IMG/VR virus record: IMGVR_UViG_3300025466_001071
Location: 1-35,349 of that record
DNA length: 35,349 nt
Origin: a virus
Reading direction: 5' to 3' (one strand)
A program made the position numbers and the translations under genes. Shown piece by piece: positions 19,318 through 27,740 of this stretch. Below the pieces are notes generated by a model that was not told the origin of the DNA, searched no databases, and was given only the letters and a program-made list of their open reading frames with translations. The first letter of the stretch is position 1. Each line of letters opens with the position of its first letter.

Positions 19318-19683
19318 TTAAGATTTCTTGGACATCCAGTTGCTGACTGGGCTGACTTTATGTACATCTTCAGTTTCTCTACTACCCTTGGTGCTGAGTT
19401 TTTTTGGAGTATACCCAAACTTTTTTAGACTGTTGGCAATGATATCACGCTCTGCTTGACTATATCCAACCATAACCATATCATCTGCAAATTGGCCTGT
19501 TACAGGATAATCATGTGTATCATCGGGACTGCCGGCCATGTGCACACCTAATCTATATTTGTGATAATAATTAGTAGGTCCTATCGGTAATCCGGGTACG
19601 CCGACACTGCTGACATTAGGAACTGCTTCCTTTTGACTATCAGTCCATTCTTGGTCTTCGGTGATAAATTCTTTGGCTCTCAT
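19318..19683 (-). CDS. Probable capsid-targeted internal protein, paralog A (121 aa)
   Basis: It begins MRAKEFITE|D, very like the capsid-targeting peptide of T4 internal proteins (MKTYQEFIxE), which prohead protease gp21 cuts after Glu (rule I/L-x-E|). The rest is clearly related to the protein at 21317-21679: YRLGVHMAGSPD, MVMVGYSQAERDI, GSRETED and SPVSNWMSKK each have a counterpart there. That makes a paralog pair flanking one gene. Start overlaps the upstream stop by 1 nt (TAATG). Packaging and injection with the DNA are inferred. The function of the mature domain is unknown. Confidence 0.6.
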   Translation of the reverse strand: MRAKEFITEDQEWTDSQKEAVPNVSSVGVPGLPIGPTNYYHKYRLGVHMAGSPDDTHDYPVTGQFADDMVMVGYSQAERDIIANSLKKFGYTPKKLSTKGSRETEDVHKVSPVSNWMSKKS

Positions 19684-21320
19684 TATTTTTTCTTGCTGGG
19701 ATTCTTAGCACCATAACTAGCCGCAATAGCCATTTGACGAACTTTCTCAGGACTCTTGTTTTTGAACTGATGATGTCCTTTGGCATTAGGAGTTTTGGCT
19801 GCTTTGGCAAAATCATCAATATAGGCCTTTACAGGTGCATTCTTAGGAATTTTCTCAGCAAGGCGAGCGTGTAACTCGGCCATGTAAGGATCGTTAGTCT
19901 CTTGTTTAAGTGCCGCTCTTTTAACCATCTTGCGGATAAGTTCTTTGTCTTCTTTTTCATCAGGATGCCCTGCTTCTTTGTAAACATGTCCTTGTTCGTG
20001 TTGGCTTTGGATGTATTCAGCTACTGTGACCATGTTTTGTTTAGCCATGCTGATCTTTTCTTCTACCCACTCTGGCATATTTTCACCAGCAATCAATACA
20101 TCTGCTAGATCTTTACAGGCTCTGATAATAGTGTGTAGATTGTTTTCAACCATATCTACTTCGTCATCGTATTCGTTGTATTCATCACCCTCTGGCATTT
20201 CTTTGTCAACTCCTTTGCCTGGCTGGATTTGTGAAGCGACAGCAGTGGCATATCCGCCCATGCCCCAGCCTTCTTCCATCGGTGACTCACCAAACCGTGC
20301 TCTGTATGAATTTGGAGACATGGTATATCTGCTGCCGATAACTTTTTGGCCTTCACCTGCTAACATTAAATCATACATCATCTTAATCACCGCTACTGGA
20401 TTTTTAAGATCATCTATGCGATTGTAAAAAAAACTTATCTTTTCTGGTTTCATCCTACGGACAGGCTTGCCTTTGATCAATTCCTTGGCCTGTGCTTTGA
20501 GAGTTTCTAGGTCCCGTATTTTTTCCAATCTTTTGATATCGTCTATGTTAAAATTATCATCAGTTCCATCGTTAGGGCCTTCCGCTACACCTTGTTTTGA
20601 TTTTAAGTTGGCTATGATTTTTTCAAGATTTTTGATTTTGACATCATGTGCTCCATTGGCATTGAATTTTTTATATTTGGCCAATTCTCGCTCGTAGTTT
20701 TTGATGTTAGCAACAGTTCGATCATCACCTTCCGCCACACCTTTTTCTCTCTTCATTACACCGGCATGATATCCACTGTCGTAATCATTGGTCATTGGTC
20801 CATGAATATTGCTGGCACGAGGATTTCTATGACCACGCAGGCCGTCTTGAAATCCATCACGATATGCTGAACTTGTTGATGGTGCTGAAGGCTTTGATGG
20901 AGTATCTCTCTGTGCAATCATATCCTTGGTGCGTTGACGCTCTTGATCGGGTGATCCTTGAACACGATGTTTGATACCTTTGTCTTTCAACATACTTAGG
21001 AACTGTGATTTTAGGTCATCCATTTCTTCCATATAAGGTTTCTTATGTTTTGCGACACCTTGTTTCATTTCTTTCTTTTTATCTTTGTGCTGACCGGCAC
21101 CGCTCATTTTGGCATTCTTGGCAACAAAATTACGGGGCTTTGGAGCTTCTTTATCTTGTGCTTCTTGATTAATAAGATTATCACCACGCTTACGAACTAC
21201 GCCTATTGGTTTAGATATACTAGCTCCTGATCCAGAACTAATAGAACCTGCCGTTACACTCTCTAATGTATAAACAGTTACATCGTTTGATTTTGTTACT
21301 TTGAATTCGTTGTTTTTCAT
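19683..21320 (-). CDS. Probable virion polyprotein with internal prohead-protease sites (545 aa)
   Basis: A hydrophilic, low-complexity protein built of modules joined by GVAE|G sites at 194-197 and 244-247, plus an altered copy GVAK at 88-91. These fit the T4 gp21 cleavage rule (hydrophobic-x-E|A/G). Between them are a YRDGFQDGLRG/YDSGYHAG repeat-like part, a coiled coil, and a C-terminal basic module (KNKSPEKVRQMAIAASYGAKNPSKKK). No MRAKEF leader is seen; it begins MKNNEFKVTK with a Ser/Gly-rich segment. The ATG overlaps the stop of paralog B (ATGA). I do not recognise any enzymatic domain. A capsid-internal protein set released by cutting is the reading I favour. Confidence 0.55.
   Translation of the reverse strand: MKNNEFKVTKSNDVTVYTLESVTAGSISSGSGASISKPIGVVRKRGDNLINQEAQDKEAPKPRNFVAKNAKMSGAGQHKDKKKEMKQGVAKHKKPYMEEMDDLKSQFLSMLKDKGIKHRVQGSPDQERQRTKDMIAQRDTPSKPSAPSTSSAYRDGFQDGLRGHRNPRASNIHGPMTNDYDSGYHAGVMKREKGVAEGDDRTVANIKNYERELAKYKKFNANGAHDVKIKNLEKIIANLKSKQGVAEGPNDGTDDNFNIDDIKRLEKIRDLETLKAQAKELIKGKPVRRMKPEKISFFYNRIDDLKNPVAVIKMMYDLMLAGEGQKVIGSRYTMSPNSYRARFGESPMEEGWGMGGYATAVASQIQPGKGVDKEMPEGDEYNEYDDEVDMVENNLHTIIRACKDLADVLIAGENMPEWVEEKISMAKQNMVTVAEYIQSQHEQGHVYKEAGHPDEKEDKELIRKMVKRAALKQETNDPYMAELHARLAEKIPKNAPVKAYIDDFAKAAKTPNAKGHHQFKNKSPEKVRQMAIAASYGAKNPSKKK
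20578..20591 (-). repeat. GVAE seam repeat, copy 2 (GGTGTAGCGGAAGG)
   Basis: One of five copies of GGTGTRGCGGAAG in coding frame as Gly-Val-Ala-Glu. Codon third positions are also conserved (GGT, GTA/GTG, GCG, GAA). Other copies are at 20728, 22109, 22784 and 23753. Confidence 0.75.
20728..20741 (-). repeat. GVAE seam repeat, copy 1 (GGTGTGGCGGAAGG)
   Basis: Same element, 150 nt upstream of copy 2 in the same gene, with the GTG valine variant shared with the copy at 23753. Confidence 0.75.
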
Positions 21321-21679
21321 TTCTTTTTCATCCAGTTACTTACAGGACTTGTCGTATTTGTGTCCTTTAACTCTTTACTACCACCAGGTGTTAATCTAAC
21401 ACGCGGTGTTCCGATTAAATTTGCGGCAGCATCTAATATATCTTCATCTGCTTGAGTGTAACCTATAGTAACCATTTTAAGACCAGTTGGACCAGCTACA
21501 TCCATCTTTTGATCAGGCATACCGGCAACAGCAACACCAAATCTATAGGCCATGTATCCTGAACTATTATCTAAATCAGGATAGAGATGAGCGTTGACCA
21601 TACTGCTAACAGAGTCGGGATGGAATCCTTTTGGACCTGCATAGTCTTTAGCTTCACCTATAAATTCTTTAGCTCGCAT
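21317..21679 (-). CDS. Probable capsid-targeted internal protein, paralog B (120 aa)
   Basis: It begins MRAKEFIGE|A, which fits the T4 internal-protein targeting peptide and gp21 cut rule even better than paralog A, because Ala follows Glu. The mature part shares YRFGVAVAGMPD, MVTIGYTQADEDI, GSKELKD and SPVSNWMKKK with the protein at 19318-19683. It has its own AGGAA ribosome site and a late-type box (21700-21707) upstream. Expression late and packaging inside the head are inferred. No enzyme motif is visible. Confidence 0.6.
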   Translation of the reverse strand: MRAKEFIGEAKDYAGPKGFHPDSVSSMVNAHLYPDLDNSSGYMAYRFGVAVAGMPDQKMDVAGPTGLKMVTIGYTQADEDILDAAANLIGTPRVRLTPGGSKELKDTNTTSPVSNWMKKK

Positions 21680-21699: not shown

Positions 21700-21707
21700 T
21701 ATTTATT
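21700..21707 (-). promoter_or_regulatory. Candidate late promoter box (AATAAATA)
   Basis: 7-of-8 match to TATAAATA on the minus strand, 21 nt upstream of the paralog B ATG with an AGGAA ribosome site between. It overlaps the end of the preceding gene. Confidence 0.45.
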
Positions 21708-23103
21708 CACAATGCCACTTGCGTAAACTCTTGTTTATTCGGCTGTTTGGATCTCGTTTAGTTTTAGCTCCTGTACGATGTTTCTTCATACCTTTCATCC
21801 GAGCACAGAAACTCTTACGGCGTTTAGAGGCTTTGCTGCCTTTTTTGAGTTTGCTGGGTTTAGTTGTTACAGCAGTTTGTAAGTGGCTGCCAGGATGGCT
21901 TCTTCTATAACTAGCCACACCTTTTTTATTCAATCCACCGTTTTTATTCTTGCCTGATGATTTTTGCCATGCTTCGGCTTCACTTAAAAGTTCTTCATCA
22001 TCAACTTCTTCAAGATCTTCCCATATAGCATCACTGTCAACACCATGCTGTTCAGCCCAATACTCAATCATGGATTCGATGATGTTGAACTGTTCTTCTA
22101 ATTCTAAGTCTTCCGCTACACCTTCATCTGCAATAGCTTTTTTTATGATGTTGACAACATTGGGATTAGTCTTAAGTTGTTTTAGGGCATGTTCAGCATG
22201 AGCTTTATCTTTGAATCCGCCTTGAACTACTGCCCACGAATTTGTACCAAAAAAGCCACCAGACGGATACCATATCTCTGATTTTCCAGTATCTGTGCGA
22301 TCTACTACTTTTAATTTATTTGGGTCTATCGGTGGAGGATTATCTTTCTCAGCTTGTGCCTTGGCCATCATTTGTTTGTGTGCTTGAACATTGGCTTTCT
22401 CATGTGCTCTAGGCTCTTGACCAATCATATCTCTCAACAAGTCTGCCCAGCTCCAACCTTCCATTTCAGGATCGTGGAATATTTCTTCAAACTCGCCTAC
22501 TACTTCACTTAGATCTTCTTCAACAAAATATTTTGGAATCAAACCTTTTTTCTCAGCTATGTCTATCATGTAAGATTCTAAAGCATCATCGTCTTCATTA
22601 GCAAAATGTTCTTTAGTATCTGGATCCATCTTTTTAATAATATCCATACCAAACTTAAACGCATGTTTGTAACCTGGCATGTTATTCATACTCATAACAG
22701 TTTTTGGGTCAACTTTAAGTGGTTTTTTATCTTGGCGTGTGCCTAATGCTTTATTCATAAATCCTGTAAAATTAGGATCATGTGCTTCCGCTACACCTTC
22801 GTTAGGTTTACAGTTACGCACCTGTCCGCCATTTTTACCTTTCTTGGTACCTACAGCGTGTTTGCCTGGCCAGCAACGAGTAAACCCATTAGCGTCCTTT
22901 TGACCCTTCTTGATCTCATTGAGATTACCGTGAGTTTGACACATGCCACAATCGGAGCATACACTTTCCATGGTAATACTTTCATTGTGTTTTTTCTTTC
23001 CGGCACAATGAGCCTTTTGACTGAAGCCTTTAGGATGACTACAGTTAATGCTAGATTTGTATTTTTGGCTCCACTTTTCAGTTAAGAATTCATTTGCTCT
23101 CAT
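21703..23103 (-). CDS. Capsid-targeted Cys-rich/basic polyprotein (466 aa), DUF6321-like C-terminus
   Basis: Leader MRANEFLTE|K matches the capsid-targeting peptide pattern. Internal GVAE|A (103-106) and GVAE|D (328-331) sites and LLSE|A near 375 would divide it into about four pieces. Piece 1 has seven Cys (C21, C33, C49, C52, C55, C77, C98) with CSDCGMC, so a zinc-binding domain. The middle is acidic and helical. The last 80 residues are very basic with HPGSHLQTAVTTKPSKL and KSFCARMKGMKK, a motif I associate with DUF6321 phage proteins. A packaged nucleic-acid-binding protein is likely by charge; specific function is unknown. It has a strong GAAAAT leader but no clear Shine-Dalgarno. Confidence 0.6.
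   Translation of the reverse strand: MRANEFLTEKWSQKYKSSINCSHPKGFSQKAHCAGKKKHNESITMESVCSDCGMCQTHGNLNEIKKGQKDANGFTRCWPGKHAVGTKKGKNGGQVRNCKPNEGVAEAHDPNFTGFMNKALGTRQDKKPLKVDPKTVMSMNNMPGYKHAFKFGMDIIKKMDPDTKEHFANEDDDALESYMIDIAEKKGLIPKYFVEEDLSEVVGEFEEIFHDPEMEGWSWADLLRDMIGQEPRAHEKANVQAHKQMMAKAQAEKDNPPPIDPNKLKVVDRTDTGKSEIWYPSGGFFGTNSWAVVQGGFKDKAHAEHALKQLKTNPNVVNIIKKAIADEGVAEDLELEEQFNIIESMIEYWAEQHGVDSDAIWEDLEEVDDEELLSEAEAWQKSSGKNKNGGLNKKGVASYRRSHPGSHLQTAVTTKPSKLKKGSKASKRRKSFCARMKGMKKHRTGAKTKRDPNSRINKSLRKWHCE
22109..22124 (-). repeat. GVAE seam repeat, copy 4
   Basis: GAAGGTGTAGCGGAAG on the minus strand, encoding E-G-V-A-E-D. It shares a 16-nt identical core with the copy at 22784-22799, 675 nt away. 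Confidence 0.75.
22784..22800 (-). repeat. GVAE seam repeat, copy 3
   Basis: GAAGGTGTAGCGGAAGC on the minus strand, encoding E-G-V-A-E-A at the end of the Cys-rich first module of the same protein. Confidence 0.75.
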
Positions 23104-23104
23104 A

Positions 23105-23413
23105 TTATTTTCCTACTGGTTTTTCATGTGTAAGATAAGGACGACTAAACCACAGTCGGAACCATTCTGGGGTTCCTGGCTGTATGTTGTGCTCCTTCAT
23201 CAACTTGACTTTTTCCATAGCAGTAACTGTTATGTTACTACCTTTATTTACTTCTGCTGTGTGGGCACGATATTCCTGTAGTCTAACCTCACCACCTAGC
23301 CCTGCTAGATACTGTACAACTTTTAATTCTTGTATAGGATCCGTGGGATCAAGATAGCAGTCATCATCGCTATCTTGGGGAATATGCTCTGTGGTTATCT
23401 TATACTGTTTCAT
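23105..23413 (-). CDS. Conserved phage-type hypothetical protein (102 aa)
   Basis: An acidic protein of unknown family. It has DDCYLDPTDPIQELKVVQYLAG, a two-helix-looking LQEYRAHTAE/VTAMEKVKLMKEH middle and an aromatic PGTPEWFRLWFSRPYL end. Its ATG overlaps the stop of the 1122-aa protein (ATGA), and it ends 1 nt before the next gene, so it is translated with the capsid-protein set. No targeting leader or GVAE site is seen, so it may act in the cell rather than the head. Confidence 0.6.
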   Translation of the reverse strand: MKQYKITTEHIPQDSDDDCYLDPTDPIQELKVVQYLAGLGGEVRLQEYRAHTAEVNKGSNITVTAMEKVKLMKEHNIQPGTPEWFRLWFSRPYLTHEKPVGK

Positions 23414-26400
23414 TTTAGTTGAGATTCAATAAGACGAGCAATAGCTTCTGCTTTGGCTAATTCCCAGTTTTCACCAATGTTGTAACCTTGGTCACTGCGT
23501 TGACTGGTATAACTACCTTGTCCTGCATAACCTCTTTTATTGTTGGCATAACTACCACTGTCAAATGATTCAGTTTCTTTGGGATTATGCTGTTTTTCCA
23601 GATAGTTTTTAACTTTTAACAATTCACTTTGATTGAGATCATCGAGATGAGCCTTACCTGTGAGTCTTTTTGTAAGGCGTAGGAAACTTGGTTCATCGTC
23701 CCATTTGATGCCTTTGCAGTCTGCGAGTTTATGAATAGTATTTGGGGTAATGCCTTCCGCCACACCTTGGATGTCACGCTTTTTCAATTCTTGATGTAGT
23801 GCTTGAAGTTTGTTATCACTGCGAGCAATAGCGTTTCGAATATCACCTGCAACCTTCTTAGGCAGTTTAGCTAATACACTGCTGACAATTTGATCTACTT
23901 GTACATTTTGTTTGCCCATAGTATCACTCTTGGGTGCTTTGACTTTTGGCTCATCAAAATCATCGTTATCATAACCGGCTTCTACTTCGATCTTGCTTAG
24001 ATAATTTTTATACTCATGATAACGATTTCCCCAGTTGTCTGCAAACTGTGTTAGAGCCCCGCTCTTCATTTTGTGGCCCATATTAAACAATATGGTTGGC
24101 AACTGCTTGCTGATCTCATTGAAACTTATTTTGTGTTCGCGGTCTTCACTGGCATCTTTGAGGAAGTATATCAACGCCTGTGAATACTTAGGAGCTTGCT
24201 TGGTCAGTGCATATAGTTCAGCCTGTAGTTTGTTAAAGTAGAAATCATTGAACCAACGACTGCCTACACCACCTGCTACCATAGCAAAGCCTTTTAAGTC
24301 ACCACGACCATCTACATAACGCTTGGCCATGGCTTTGAGTTGTTCAAATACTTGAGCAATATACTTACCGTGATCTGCAATAGTTTTTACGGTACCTTCT
24401 AAACTATTGGCTTCTGCTAATCCATGTTTCTTTTCCCAATCATACTCATCTGGATTATGATAGATTTTTTTGTTGGCTGTTGGACCTACTGGTTTTTGTT
24501 GCTTGCCTATTTTCATAAGTTCGGCATAGTCATCGGGAGTAAGACGCTTAGGTTTAGGTGCTTCTGGTTTTGTTTTTAGACCAAAAATCTCTGCTATGTC
24601 TGCATCATCATCTGATTTCTGTTGTTGTGGAAAAAATTTAGAATTATACACAAAATAAACGCCATCTTGTTCTTCATACTTCCAACCTGGGAAAGTCTGT
24701 AGCATTTTTCTAGTCAATGCTGTGTAGAGTTTTCTCCGACTGGGTTCTGCGGCCTGGAATATCACAAAAGTCAGTTTATGTTTTTTCACATACTGAGCAA
24801 TAGCATTATAGACAATACCGAATACTTCTGCGGCCGCACCTGTACCTTCTATACCCTGCTTACCATATCCGACCCCTGGCTTAGGTTCTTGTATAAATTC
24901 AATAAAACGACCTAGATCAGGATCGCCGTCAGCATTGTCAAAAGTATCAAAATCATATGGTTGTACCTCATCAGGAGCGGCATGAAACCCCATGATACTT
25001 AATTGGTAAGGAATACCATTGCTGGCCACAAAATTCAAATTTGCTAAAGTATCATCTCCACTCCATTTAGCCTGATTAGATTTAGCAGGTTTGGTATTCA
25101 TCAACTCTGATAAATTGTCATCATCTTGGTTTCTGCGTAGTTGAGACATACTCTCACCTCCAACAAAGTCGCCTGCACGAGCTGGACGATGTTTTGATTG
25201 ATTCCATTGACCTGCAGGGCCTAGTTTATTTTTCTTACTACCTGCAAAGTTACTTGCTGGCATCATAGTTTCTTTGGTCTTTTTTACTTTAGGAGTAGGA
25301 GTCATACCTGCCTTGACATCTGCCATTAGCTGTTGTGCTGTGGCATCATCTAATGAACCGGGAACTCCAGATTTGAATGTAGCAAAATCATCATCCATTG
25401 CGGCTTGACGCATTTTAGTTCCGCTGATCCCTGAAGCATCATCTGCATCAGGATCTCGATCTATTTTAACAACTTTAATAGAATCAAAGTTATAGTCTCT
25501 ACCGTTATAGTCATTTAATAATTTTTCAAATTCTTCGGCACGACTACCACCTGCTATCATAATAATATTACGGTACTTTTGATTTAAGTATTTGGCAGCT
25601 TCTATCGGAGTACGGACAGCGTCAGTGGCAGGTTGGAAATTTGTTCCAGGGAACATACGAGTTAGATATCCCATCTTTTGATCTATACTGAGAGGATTTT
25701 TTAATTTCTCCCCAGGTGTCTTGCCTACTGTACGACTAACATAGATAACATAAGGACAGTGATTTTGTTCTGCTGTTTGTTTTACAGCATTGACTAGCAA
25801 TTCATGACCGATAGTTGGAGGTTGCAGTCTTCCAAATGCAAATACTACTGTGCTAGGGCCAGCTGTTTCTATCAGTGCTCGCAACAGTCTCTTTGACTCT
25901 CCAAATGTTTGTTTGATTTTATCTAATGCGGCTTCTTTACCGGCACCTTTTGCGGTACCTACTTCACCACTCTTAACTGTGATCATACTACCAAATACTC
26001 CTTGCATCCTAGAATTGCTTCGAGGATTTTTAATTACTTGTTTGCTTTGAGCTAATAATTGATCAAAGTTTGCATCTAGATTGTATTGATACAATAACTT
26101 TTGAATGTCTTCGAAGTTTCTAGTACTCCATACAACATCTCTACTGAGTTGTTTGTACTGCCCTTGTGCCAATAATTCTGGATCGTAAGTTACTAGTCTT
26201 AATTGTAGTTCAACACTGCTTAGGTTAAACTCATACTCTTGATTTTGTTCTATATTAGGTTGTGCATTAATACCCAACTTCTTGAACAGCACAGCAGGTT
26301 CAGTTTCAATAGTTGCAATCTTAACTAGGCCTAGGATCAATCCCTGTTTCTCAGCAGGCCAATCTAAGAATAGTTGTTTGAATGTTGCTTCAGTTTGATC

Positions 26401-26778
26401 CAAGGCAACAATATTATCAATTTGAGCACTATAGCCCAATGAATCATCATGATAGCGAACACTGACCAACTCACCGGCATTGTAACTACGCTTGCCTGCA
26501 TGTTTTGCAGAACTGAAAGGAACAATAACTGTTTCGGGTTGGCGTTGTAGGAATGCCTGTAATTCTTTCTTAACAGTGGCTTTGTCTTTGTCGCTTTTAA
26601 TATGTACAATGATATCAATGTCACCAAAGTCATTCTTAGACATATCACTATTATAACTGCCGCTGGGATTGAAACCTACAAATCCTGGGAACTGACTGAT
26701 TAGGTCTTTATAAGATTTTAGGAATTGTTGAAAGTCTTGACGACTCTTTACACGATCTGCACCTGCTACTCCGCTCAT
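23410..26778 (-). CDS. Multidomain nucleotidyltransferase / NMNAT-like / possible acetyltransferase protein (1122 aa)
   Basis: Domain 1 (1-190) is a Pol-beta-type nucleotidyltransferase: GS at 40-41, GDIDIIV with D53 and D55, and a third Asp in QID (D121). Domain 2 (about 308-480) is a HIGH-type nucleotidylyltransferase of the NMNAT/cytidylyltransferase group: FAFGRLQPPTIGH (H325), AGGSR near 409 and ISGTKMR at 451-457. Domain 3 (about 575-740) has GIEGTGAAAEVFG and a terminal strand pattern that could be a GNAT acetyltransferase, which is tentative. The rest is helical. GLAE|A (786-789) and GVAE|G (1005-1008) fit prohead-protease cutting. It overlaps its neighbours by 4 nt each side. A packaged, injected set of nucleotide-handling enzymes is the inference; substrates are unknown. 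Confidence 0.75.
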   Translation of the reverse strand: MSGVAGADRVKSRQDFQQFLKSYKDLISQFPGFVGFNPSGSYNSDMSKNDFGDIDIIVHIKSDKDKATVKKELQAFLQRQPETVIVPFSSAKHAGKRSYNAGELVSVRYHDDSLGYSAQIDNIVALDQTEATFKQLFLDWPAEKQGLILGLVKIATIETEPAVLFKKLGINAQPNIEQNQEYEFNLSSVELQLRLVTYDPELLAQGQYKQLSRDVVWSTRNFEDIQKLLYQYNLDANFDQLLAQSKQVIKNPRSNSRMQGVFGSMITVKSGEVGTAKGAGKEAALDKIKQTFGESKRLLRALIETAGPSTVVFAFGRLQPPTIGHELLVNAVKQTAEQNHCPYVIYVSRTVGKTPGEKLKNPLSIDQKMGYLTRMFPGTNFQPATDAVRTPIEAAKYLNQKYRNIIMIAGGSRAEEFEKLLNDYNGRDYNFDSIKVVKIDRDPDADDASGISGTKMRQAAMDDDFATFKSGVPGSLDDATAQQLMADVKAGMTPTPKVKKTKETMMPASNFAGSKKNKLGPAGQWNQSKHRPARAGDFVGGESMSQLRRNQDDDNLSELMNTKPAKSNQAKWSGDDTLANLNFVASNGIPYQLSIMGFHAAPDEVQPYDFDTFDNADGDPDLGRFIEFIQEPKPGVGYGKQGIEGTGAAAEVFGIVYNAIAQYVKKHKLTFVIFQAAEPSRRKLYTALTRKMLQTFPGWKYEEQDGVYFVYNSKFFPQQQKSDDDADIAEIFGLKTKPEAPKPKRLTPDDYAELMKIGKQQKPVGPTANKKIYHNPDEYDWEKKHGLAEANSLEGTVKTIADHGKYIAQVFEQLKAMAKRYVDGRGDLKGFAMVAGGVGSRWFNDFYFNKLQAELYALTKQAPKYSQALIYFLKDASEDREHKISFNEISKQLPTILFNMGHKMKSGALTQFADNWGNRYHEYKNYLSKIEVEAGYDNDDFDEPKVKAPKSDTMGKQNVQVDQIVSSVLAKLPKKVAGDIRNAIARSDNKLQALHQELKKRDIQGVAEGITPNTIHKLADCKGIKWDDEPSFLRLTKRLTGKAHLDDLNQSELLKVKNYLEKQHNPKETESFDSGSYANNKRGYAGQGSYTSQRSDQGYNIGENWELAKAEAIARLIESQLK
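23753..23766 (-). repeat. GVAE seam repeat, copy 5 (GGTGTGGCGGAAGG)
   Basis: Identical over 14 nt to the copy at 20728-20741, 3 kb away in a different gene. It marks the border of the last, helical, 114-residue module. Confidence 0.75.
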
Positions 26779-27740
26779 TGTAGTGTCCTTAATGCTGAGT
26801 TGTCTGGTAAAAATTTACCTGTGAGTCCTAGACTGTCTTTACGCTTACGCCACTCGTCTTGCATGTCGTCTGGAATATCAACGCGAGTACTATCTAGTAT
26901 CTTAAAATAGATATTCAATAAAGTATTGTAATCTTCTGGACGCATCTTGGCTTTGAATAGTGCGTGAAGTTTATAATAGTCTTCAGCATCTGCTTGAGAT
27001 ATGTTAAATCCCAACACCTTACCTAATACTGCTAGAGCCTGATCAGGATCACGGGCAATAACTTCACCTGTTTGTTTGTCTTTAACACCACTGACATGAT
27101 TAAATGATAGCCCGGCTACTTGGAATGCCGCTAGCATCAGTTGGGTACGATGTAGTCCTTTGACATTACTGCCTTTAGGATAAGCCGCTGAATAATAACT
27201 GAATTTCAGCCAATTAAGATCTCCAATCATCCAATCAATCTGAACACCGCTACCTACATGCTGTCCAGCATCATCTATCTGTGGGAATAATCCAAAGATG
27301 TTTCCATCAGTGACTTTCTTTTCATCACAGTATAGAGTAGGTGCATTACTGTTGATGTAAAGTGTTAATTCTTTTAAGAACGCTTTCATACGAAGTTGTT
27401 CCGGTGTGCTTGTACGAGCACGCTTCTGTAATGCTGTGAATTCTGCGGCAACTGCTTTTGGATCTACACCCCAAGCGGCTATACTTTCATCACTCATTGT
27501 TTTATCTAAAATATCGTGAGCACTGACACCTAGATCGATATCACCTGATACATCTTTTTTACGAACACTGCCTAATGGATGAAAATGTTGTTCATCAAAT
27601 ATTTTGGCCTTACGGGGAAATAGGCTTTTTAATTCTGCAAAGTATGCGTTTAGTGTAGGAGTAATGTGCTCCATCTTAATAGCAGTAGTCTTACCAGCAA
27701 AAACATTACCACCTTCGGTTAATAGTTCTTTAATACGCAT
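26775..27740 (-). CDS. Capsid-targeted Pol-beta-type nucleotidyltransferase (321 aa)
   Basis: It begins MRIKELLTE|GG, a variant of the capsid-targeting leader that fits the L-x-E|G cut rule. The body has the nucleotidyltransferase signature GSVRKKDVSGDIDLGV (two Asp of the metal site) and a third Asp in VQIDWMIGD, the same order as in domain 1 of the next gene. The C-terminal half is helical (GLHRTQLMLAAFQ, AEDYYKLHALF). Such enzymes transfer a nucleotide to protein, RNA or small molecules. T4 injects modifying enzymes (Alt) from its head in a similar way. Substrate cannot be predicted. It overlaps the next gene by 4 nt (ATGA). Confidence 0.7.
   Translation of the reverse strand: MRIKELLTEGGNVFAGKTTAIKMEHITPTLNAYFAELKSLFPRKAKIFDEQHFHPLGSVRKKDVSGDIDLGVSAHDILDKTMSDESIAAWGVDPKAVAAEFTALQKRARTSTPEQLRMKAFLKELTLYINSNAPTLYCDEKKVTDGNIFGLFPQIDDAGQHVGSGVQIDWMIGDLNWLKFSYYSAAYPKGSNVKGLHRTQLMLAAFQVAGLSFNHVSGVKDKQTGEVIARDPDQALAVLGKVLGFNISQADAEDYYKLHALFKAKMRPEDYNTLLNIYFKILDSTRVDIPDDMQDEWRKRKDSLGLTGKFLPDNSALRTLQ

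Follow-up and report, generated by a model that had tools for sequence, protein, structure and literature searches.

The virus record IMGVR_UViG_3300025466_001071, a 35-kb fragment analysed here over its whole 35,349 bases (the window), raises the question of what purpose is served by a 1122-aa protein of a freshwater-type phage joining a Pol-beta-type nucleotidyltransferase (NTase) to a HIGH-type nucleotidylyltransferase that resembles nicotinamide mononucleotide (NMN) adenylyltransferase (NMNAT). The open reading frame (ORF) encoding this protein, P0001 (23410..26778, on the minus strand like all window features given below), is free of stops, and its start codon overlaps the stop codon of the gene upstream (ATGA). 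The original prediction took the product for a fused enzyme delivered with the DNA. According to the present analysis, P0001 is probably a head-cargo polyprotein of a myovirus lineage of the T4 type (with a gp21 protease), cut in the prohead and injected together with a partner enzyme, NTase1. Relatives were sampled from IMG/VR contigs (related loci and contigs carry L-numbers) and from Flavobacterium phage immuto; a full-length search with P0001 returned one relative, and domain alignments were needed to reach the wider ones. No isolate matched the window in a nucleotide search.

P0001 consists of NTase2 (residues 1-300, 25879..26778), the HIGH domain (305-500, 25279..25866), a DUF6934-like module (571-712, 24643..25068) and helical modules, one of which (790-1004, 23767..24411) is common to L006, L011, L018 and L145. 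NTase2, with the conserved start MSGVAGADR, carries the Pol-beta/Pol-X-like motifs GS (40-41), DID (53-55) and QID (119-121), in which G40, D53, D55, Q119 and D121 are invariant across 33 diverse relatives. Its best member matches Pfam DNA_pol_B_palm at 2.9e-6, and the AlphaFold model of P0001, with a predicted local distance difference test (pLDDT) score mostly >90 over NTase2, retrieved human DNA polymerase lambda in Foldseek (E 6e-6, probability 1.00, modest TM-score); PDB sequence searches with the NTase profiles gave nothing informative. The HIGH domain holds the motifs GRLQPPTIGH (TxGH; 316-325, 25804..25833) and ISGTKMR (451-457, 25408..25428) and matches the PHROG 'cytidyltransferase' family at 1.2e-55. 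Given the invariant residues, the Pfam and PHROG matches and the model, the NTase and HIGH motifs are not due to chance, and the proposed joining of the two domains, with motifs intact, is borne out. A GNAT fold, also suggested earlier, is weakly supported: the order of strands (E) and helices (H) over 571-712 (E-E-E-H-E-H-E-E) fits, yet pLDDT there is about 30-86, the DUF6934 match is sub-threshold, and no GNAT match occurred among the hits listed for the full-chain model.

The original prediction overlooked the NTase1-NTase2 gene pair, which is better conserved than the fusion with HIGH. NTase1 (321 aa, 26775..27740 in the window) adjoins NTase2 in immuto and at almost every one of about 100 IMG/VR loci; the two are fused in one protein in L081, and their order is reversed in L074. 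The NTase1 sequence has no PHROG or Pfam match. Its model (pLDDT 90.6) retrieved DNA polymerase beta (4e-5, probability 1.00, TM about 0.39), and comparison of G57, S58, D67, D69 and D169 in 36 relatives showed the GS/DID/QID residues to be invariant save for one D-to-Y change in L078. The profiles of NTase1 and NTase2 resemble each other weakly but positively (1e-4). Scans of bacterial genomes gave no match for NTase2 and one for NTase1, on a contig with phage-like neighbouring ORFs. In L110, NTase2 is split over two ORFs, by sequencing error or decay. HIGH is the looser partner: the pair occurs without a fused HIGH domain in L013-L017, L034, L059, L064, L074 and L086, and three HIGH types (GRxQPPTxGH, GGFKPPHxAH and GRFQPFHxGH) are joined after NTase2.

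Marks of prohead processing are found on both partners. Window NTase1 starts with the leader MRIKELLTE (27714..27740), which is similar to the T4 capsid-targeting sequence (CTS) and precedes a predicted mature start GGNVF; in the model, order begins at GGNVF and the leader is disordered. Among 24 distinct extended NTase1 proteins the residue before GGN[VI]F is E in every case, L or I occupies the third position before the cut (P3) in 23, and P2 is free, taking eight different residues; a further 32 distinct NTase1 proteins begin at M-GGNVF. As judged from sequence, the E/GGN[VI]F junction (the slash marking the candidate cut) is that of the T4 gp21 prohead-protease rule after a CTS-like leader. 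The leader resembles MKTYQEFIAE, with which T4 ipII and ipIII start (MKTYQEFIAE/A); in the T4 leader, residues 8 and 10 control processing (PMC9026906). Candidate sites also lie between the enzymes. The L081 fusion reads TLTE/SGSIGANR at its junction (LTE/SG), most NTase2-HIGH linkers contain an LxE-like site, and the window has LIE/T at this border (302-304, 25867..25875); a linker shuffle test gave 4 observed against 1.2 expected, from only four non-redundant linkers, too few to rely on. The gp21-type S77 protease (PF03420) was detected in 12 of 20 NTase contigs, including every searched contig >150 kb. Of the HIGH proteins, 31/79 show a strict leader pattern, compared with 33/357 of the other genes in the same loci (p 9e-10, relatedness uncorrected). 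C-termini of NTase2 in L013-L017, L034, L064 and L220 hold CTS-like words (MKSFSDFLTE, FRSLIE, FFRDNILTE), as if a packaging tag were carried there. A similar amphipathic tail (ARLIESQLK, IRLLENK, IKLLESK, ISLLENR) ends otherwise different modules in the window (23416-23478) and in L006, L008, L012 and L085, and is perhaps a second targeting signal.

Relatives of the HIGH domain have been detected in virions. P0001 is matched by 560 phage records, and the HIGH family is common in T4-like marine phages. ORF91 of cyanophage S-SCSM1, 35% identical to P0001 310-539 (5e-34) and starting MKSFLQFLKE/A, was detected in virions by mass spectrometry (PMC9602691), as was gp154 of S-CREM2, starting MKNFSSFLTE/A (PMC10665884). 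With these homologues, the prohead-protease-type sites and the leaders on neighbours and relatives, the delivery with the DNA proposed for P0001 is probable. The idea that a virion-borne NMNAT-like protein acts on host nicotinamide adenine dinucleotide (NAD) is not new, having already been put forward for cyanophages (PMC9602691, PMC10665884). Beside the S-CREM2 HIGH protein, gp156 (L222 8013-8726), also a virion protein by mass spectrometry, shows a GGNANYNYTPYSDIDLHLV motif and by eye is Pol-beta-like.

The predicted Rossmann core of the HIGH domain holds up: pLDDT is >90 over most of 311-492, and the elements alternate in beta-alpha-beta order (E-H-E-H-H-E-H-E-H-E). TxGH is kept in 76/80 HIGH relatives, and an inactive domain was rejected, the motif being kept. 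Full-chain Foldseek of P0001 gave Pol-X hits only, with no structural hit for the HIGH domain itself. In Pfam CTP_transf_like, P0001 scores 13.3 bits, below the cut-off of 21, and the close relative L008 (22.4) and L030 (43 bits) score above it; no NCBIfam NMNAT model matches P0001, and L008 reaches 14.4 of the 112 bits needed. By profile comparison the window-type HIGH domain matches the L030 type (5.9e-7), whose profile in turn matches a solved NMN adenylyltransferase, 2qjt (2e-4). These likenesses favour transfer of an adenylyl group to NMN or another small molecule like it; that the HIGH domain acts by adenylylation on a small pyridine- or phospho-metabolite, with NMN to NAD as first candidate, may be put at a little under an even chance. 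For the two NTases, addition of nucleotides to nucleic-acid ends is favoured by the Pol-X resemblance of their models, as a tentative assignment.

The most novel part of the locus is a short linker, GVAE, and the switching of modules around it. Three neighbouring window proteins together hold five copies of the peptide, against 0.17 expected from shuffling, at 20579-20591, 20729-20741, 22110-22122, 22785-22797 and 23754-23766 (the last, in P0001, reading GGTGTGGCGGAAG); it recurs in L223-L302. In the window it is always coded GGTGT[GA]GCGGAAG, with 0 expected in dinucleotide shuffles, and a scan for AGGTGTGGCGGAAGGC returned at least 120 stretches. Out of 109 copies of the word, 106 lie in frame within the longest ORF, at module borders; same-strand spacings are multiples of three in 29/29, the copies of one genome all share a strand, with no occurrence of the reversed word. 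Among 87 other GVAE peptide copies, Ala is coded GCG in 68, against a background of 8%, and Val is coded GTG in 70, against one of 19%, a bias beyond background which implies that the DNA itself is conserved. Comparison of 192 sites yielded 57 pairs with one flank alike (>50% identity) and the other not (<20%), and two pairs with both alike; otherwise unrelated modules therefore switch at the word. The strict leader is present in 10/45 GVAE proteins against 44/556 others (p 0.004), and the S77 protease in 6/12 GVAE contigs. No use of GVAEG for phages was found in the papers searched. Tentatively, the sequences suggest that exchangeable cargo enzyme modules are joined at GGTGTGGCGGAAG as an in-frame recombination joint doubling as a prohead-protease cut site, the tandem NTases and their NMNAT-like partner being one such set in an arsenal delivered before gene expression.

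A course of events can be proposed from these marks. NTase1 and NTase2 would be co-expressed, the latter joined to HIGH and further modules, and short leaders or tails like the T4 CTS would direct them to the prohead core. There the S77 protease would cut after L/I-x-E, and perhaps V-A-E, to free mature NTase1 (GGNVF...) and to part NTase2 from HIGH and the later modules from one another; the site pattern is observed, the cutting presumed. The cargo would be ejected with the DNA, as virion-detected relatives suggest, and would act before phage gene expression. Packaging, cutting and injection of P0001 are likely. With a linker that looks cleavable, and parts that probably come apart inside the head, a single, channelled bifunctional NTase-HIGH enzyme appears unlikely, and the fused enzyme first envisaged is better described as cargo.

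Several observations weigh against this account. P0001 itself lacks a leader at its N-terminus, and virion evidence comes from homologues detected by mass spectrometry, none of it from the window phage. The immuto-type NTase1 also lacks a leader, so that packaging need not be universal, and the immuto NTases are neighboured by DNA-replication genes, which fits an ordinary enzyme. No S77 protease was found in 8 of the 20 NTase contigs, which are fragments; the match of GVAE to the [LI]xE consensus is only approximate; and the leader counts treat related proteins as independent. Assignments of activity rest on likeness of sequence and fold, with Foldseek TM-scores for the NTases of about 0.35-0.5, and NTase1 of L078 has lost the first catalytic Asp, SGDIDL having become SGYIDL, by sequencing error or decay. 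A rival reading takes these proteins for ordinary, unpackaged intracellular enzymes, with LxE and GVAE as accidental words or structural linkers: the missing P0001 leader and the DNA-metabolism neighbours in immuto fit such a reading, as does the carry-over contamination that the cyanophage authors noted as possible (PMC10665884). It is nonetheless unlikely in view of the exact E/GGNVF junctions with variable P2, the LTE/SG in the L081 fusion, the recurring leaders and the repeated virion detection of relatives. If GVAE words instead marked internal sites of translation initiation or a regulatory element in the DNA, this would account for conservation at the DNA level beyond codon bias, and the word does hold AAGG and GTG; with 106 of the 109 copies sharing a single frame within the longest ORF, and modules switching exactly there, such a role carries little probability.

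Injected cargo could also serve ends other than those favoured above. An NMNAT domain that rebuilds NAD, and so defeats NAD-depleting host defences, would agree with the HIGH fold and its intact TxGH and SxTKxR motifs, with NMNAT-like relatives in virions and with the existence of phage NAD-salvage systems (PMC9503650, PMC12774641). It is somewhat doubtful, as no NadV or other NAD-pathway gene was seen among the scanned window ORFs, P0001 falls under the cut-offs of named NMNAT families and is labelled cytidyltransferase by PHROGs, and some NTase pairs have no HIGH domain fused to them. No defence system was called by PADLOC. Pol-beta folds include protein nucleotidylyltransferases, and NTase1 and NTase2 might nucleotidylate host proteins (AMPylation or UMPylation) in an injected takeover like that of T4 Alt, whose cargo context they appear to share. 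This is quite unlikely: the structures retrieved are DNA polymerases lambda, mu and beta, which point to nucleic-acid ends, and we know of no target.

As injected cargo, P0001 would work like the T4 internal proteins and Alt and like polyvalent proteins, set apart by its Pol-X pair, the candidate protease sites between modules and the DNA-level linker. T4 IPI-III and Alt have an MKTYQEFIAE-like leader, gp21-type cleavage and injection in common with the cargo proposed here, and Alt, an enzyme, is cleaved at each end; the T4 cargoes are, however, single proteins, and in the comparisons made none proved homologous to NTase1, NTase2 or HIGH. The cyanophage NMNAT/cytidylyltransferases (S-SCSM1 ORF91, S-CREM2 gp154; PHROG 395/3041) have a homologous HIGH domain and a T4-type CTS-like leader and were detected in virions, but they come with no NTase1 or NTase2, and their HIGH domain is N-terminal, right after the leader. 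Immuto has syntenic NTase1 (43.5%) and NTase2 (39.5%) with HIGH fused at the same place, and differs in its HIGH type (GGFKPPHxAH/FSATxIR), the missing NTase1 leader and other C-terminal modules. Phage NadM/NadR/NadV salvage shares a HIGH-superfamily adenylyltransferase, whereas the window shows no Nudix, kinase or NadV partner; such salvage enzymes are not known to be carried in the head in that form. Short conserved boundary or linker DNA marks the joints of exchangeable segments in lambdoid phages; the GVAE joint differs in lying inside ORFs, in frame, and coding a candidate protease site. Polyvalent proteins (Iyer, Aravind and colleagues, cited in PMC9503650) are large, multidomain, virion-borne and predicted to be injected, with many enzyme domains. 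P0001 is likewise multidomain and presumably embedded in the virion, and is distinguished by a different domain set and by modules that are parted by candidate sites for the prohead protease and by a linker word conserved in the DNA.

A neighbouring cargo-type protein, encoded at 21703..23103, has the leader MRANEFLTE, two GVAE linkers and a basic C-terminal domain (373-465) common to 287 phage records, mostly of cyanophages, and related to DUF6321, which also ends L008's version of P0001. Small proteins with leaders MRAKEFIGE (21317..21679) and MRAKEFITE (19318..19683) flank a modular protein of 545 aa with two GVAE linkers (19683..21320). Elsewhere, a module GKVINTYLWHGSRQKIP...NAIYATSDPKVAIAMGL follows a GVAE linker in differing contexts (L007 7897 onward, L011 9587 onward, L301 4158); by eye it is ADP-ribosyltransferase-like, and L007 and L011 gave no Pfam match. 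Two HExxH metallopeptidase-like modules (HEMIHH, HEIEHL) lie in the C-terminal parts of L076 9399-10721, L081 and L082, the last also holding a HAD-like module in the same polyprotein class.

Conserved and uncharacterised, the NTase pair of polymerase-like enzymes bears signs of packaging into the head and is spread over about 100 phage contigs, of which some exceed 200 kb. Injection, if it takes place, would let the pair act ahead of all phage gene expression, at the point where the defences of the host are first encountered. In metagenomes, the GVAE word could serve to search for phage proteins that are injected, and it hints at the way in which phages may reshuffle them.

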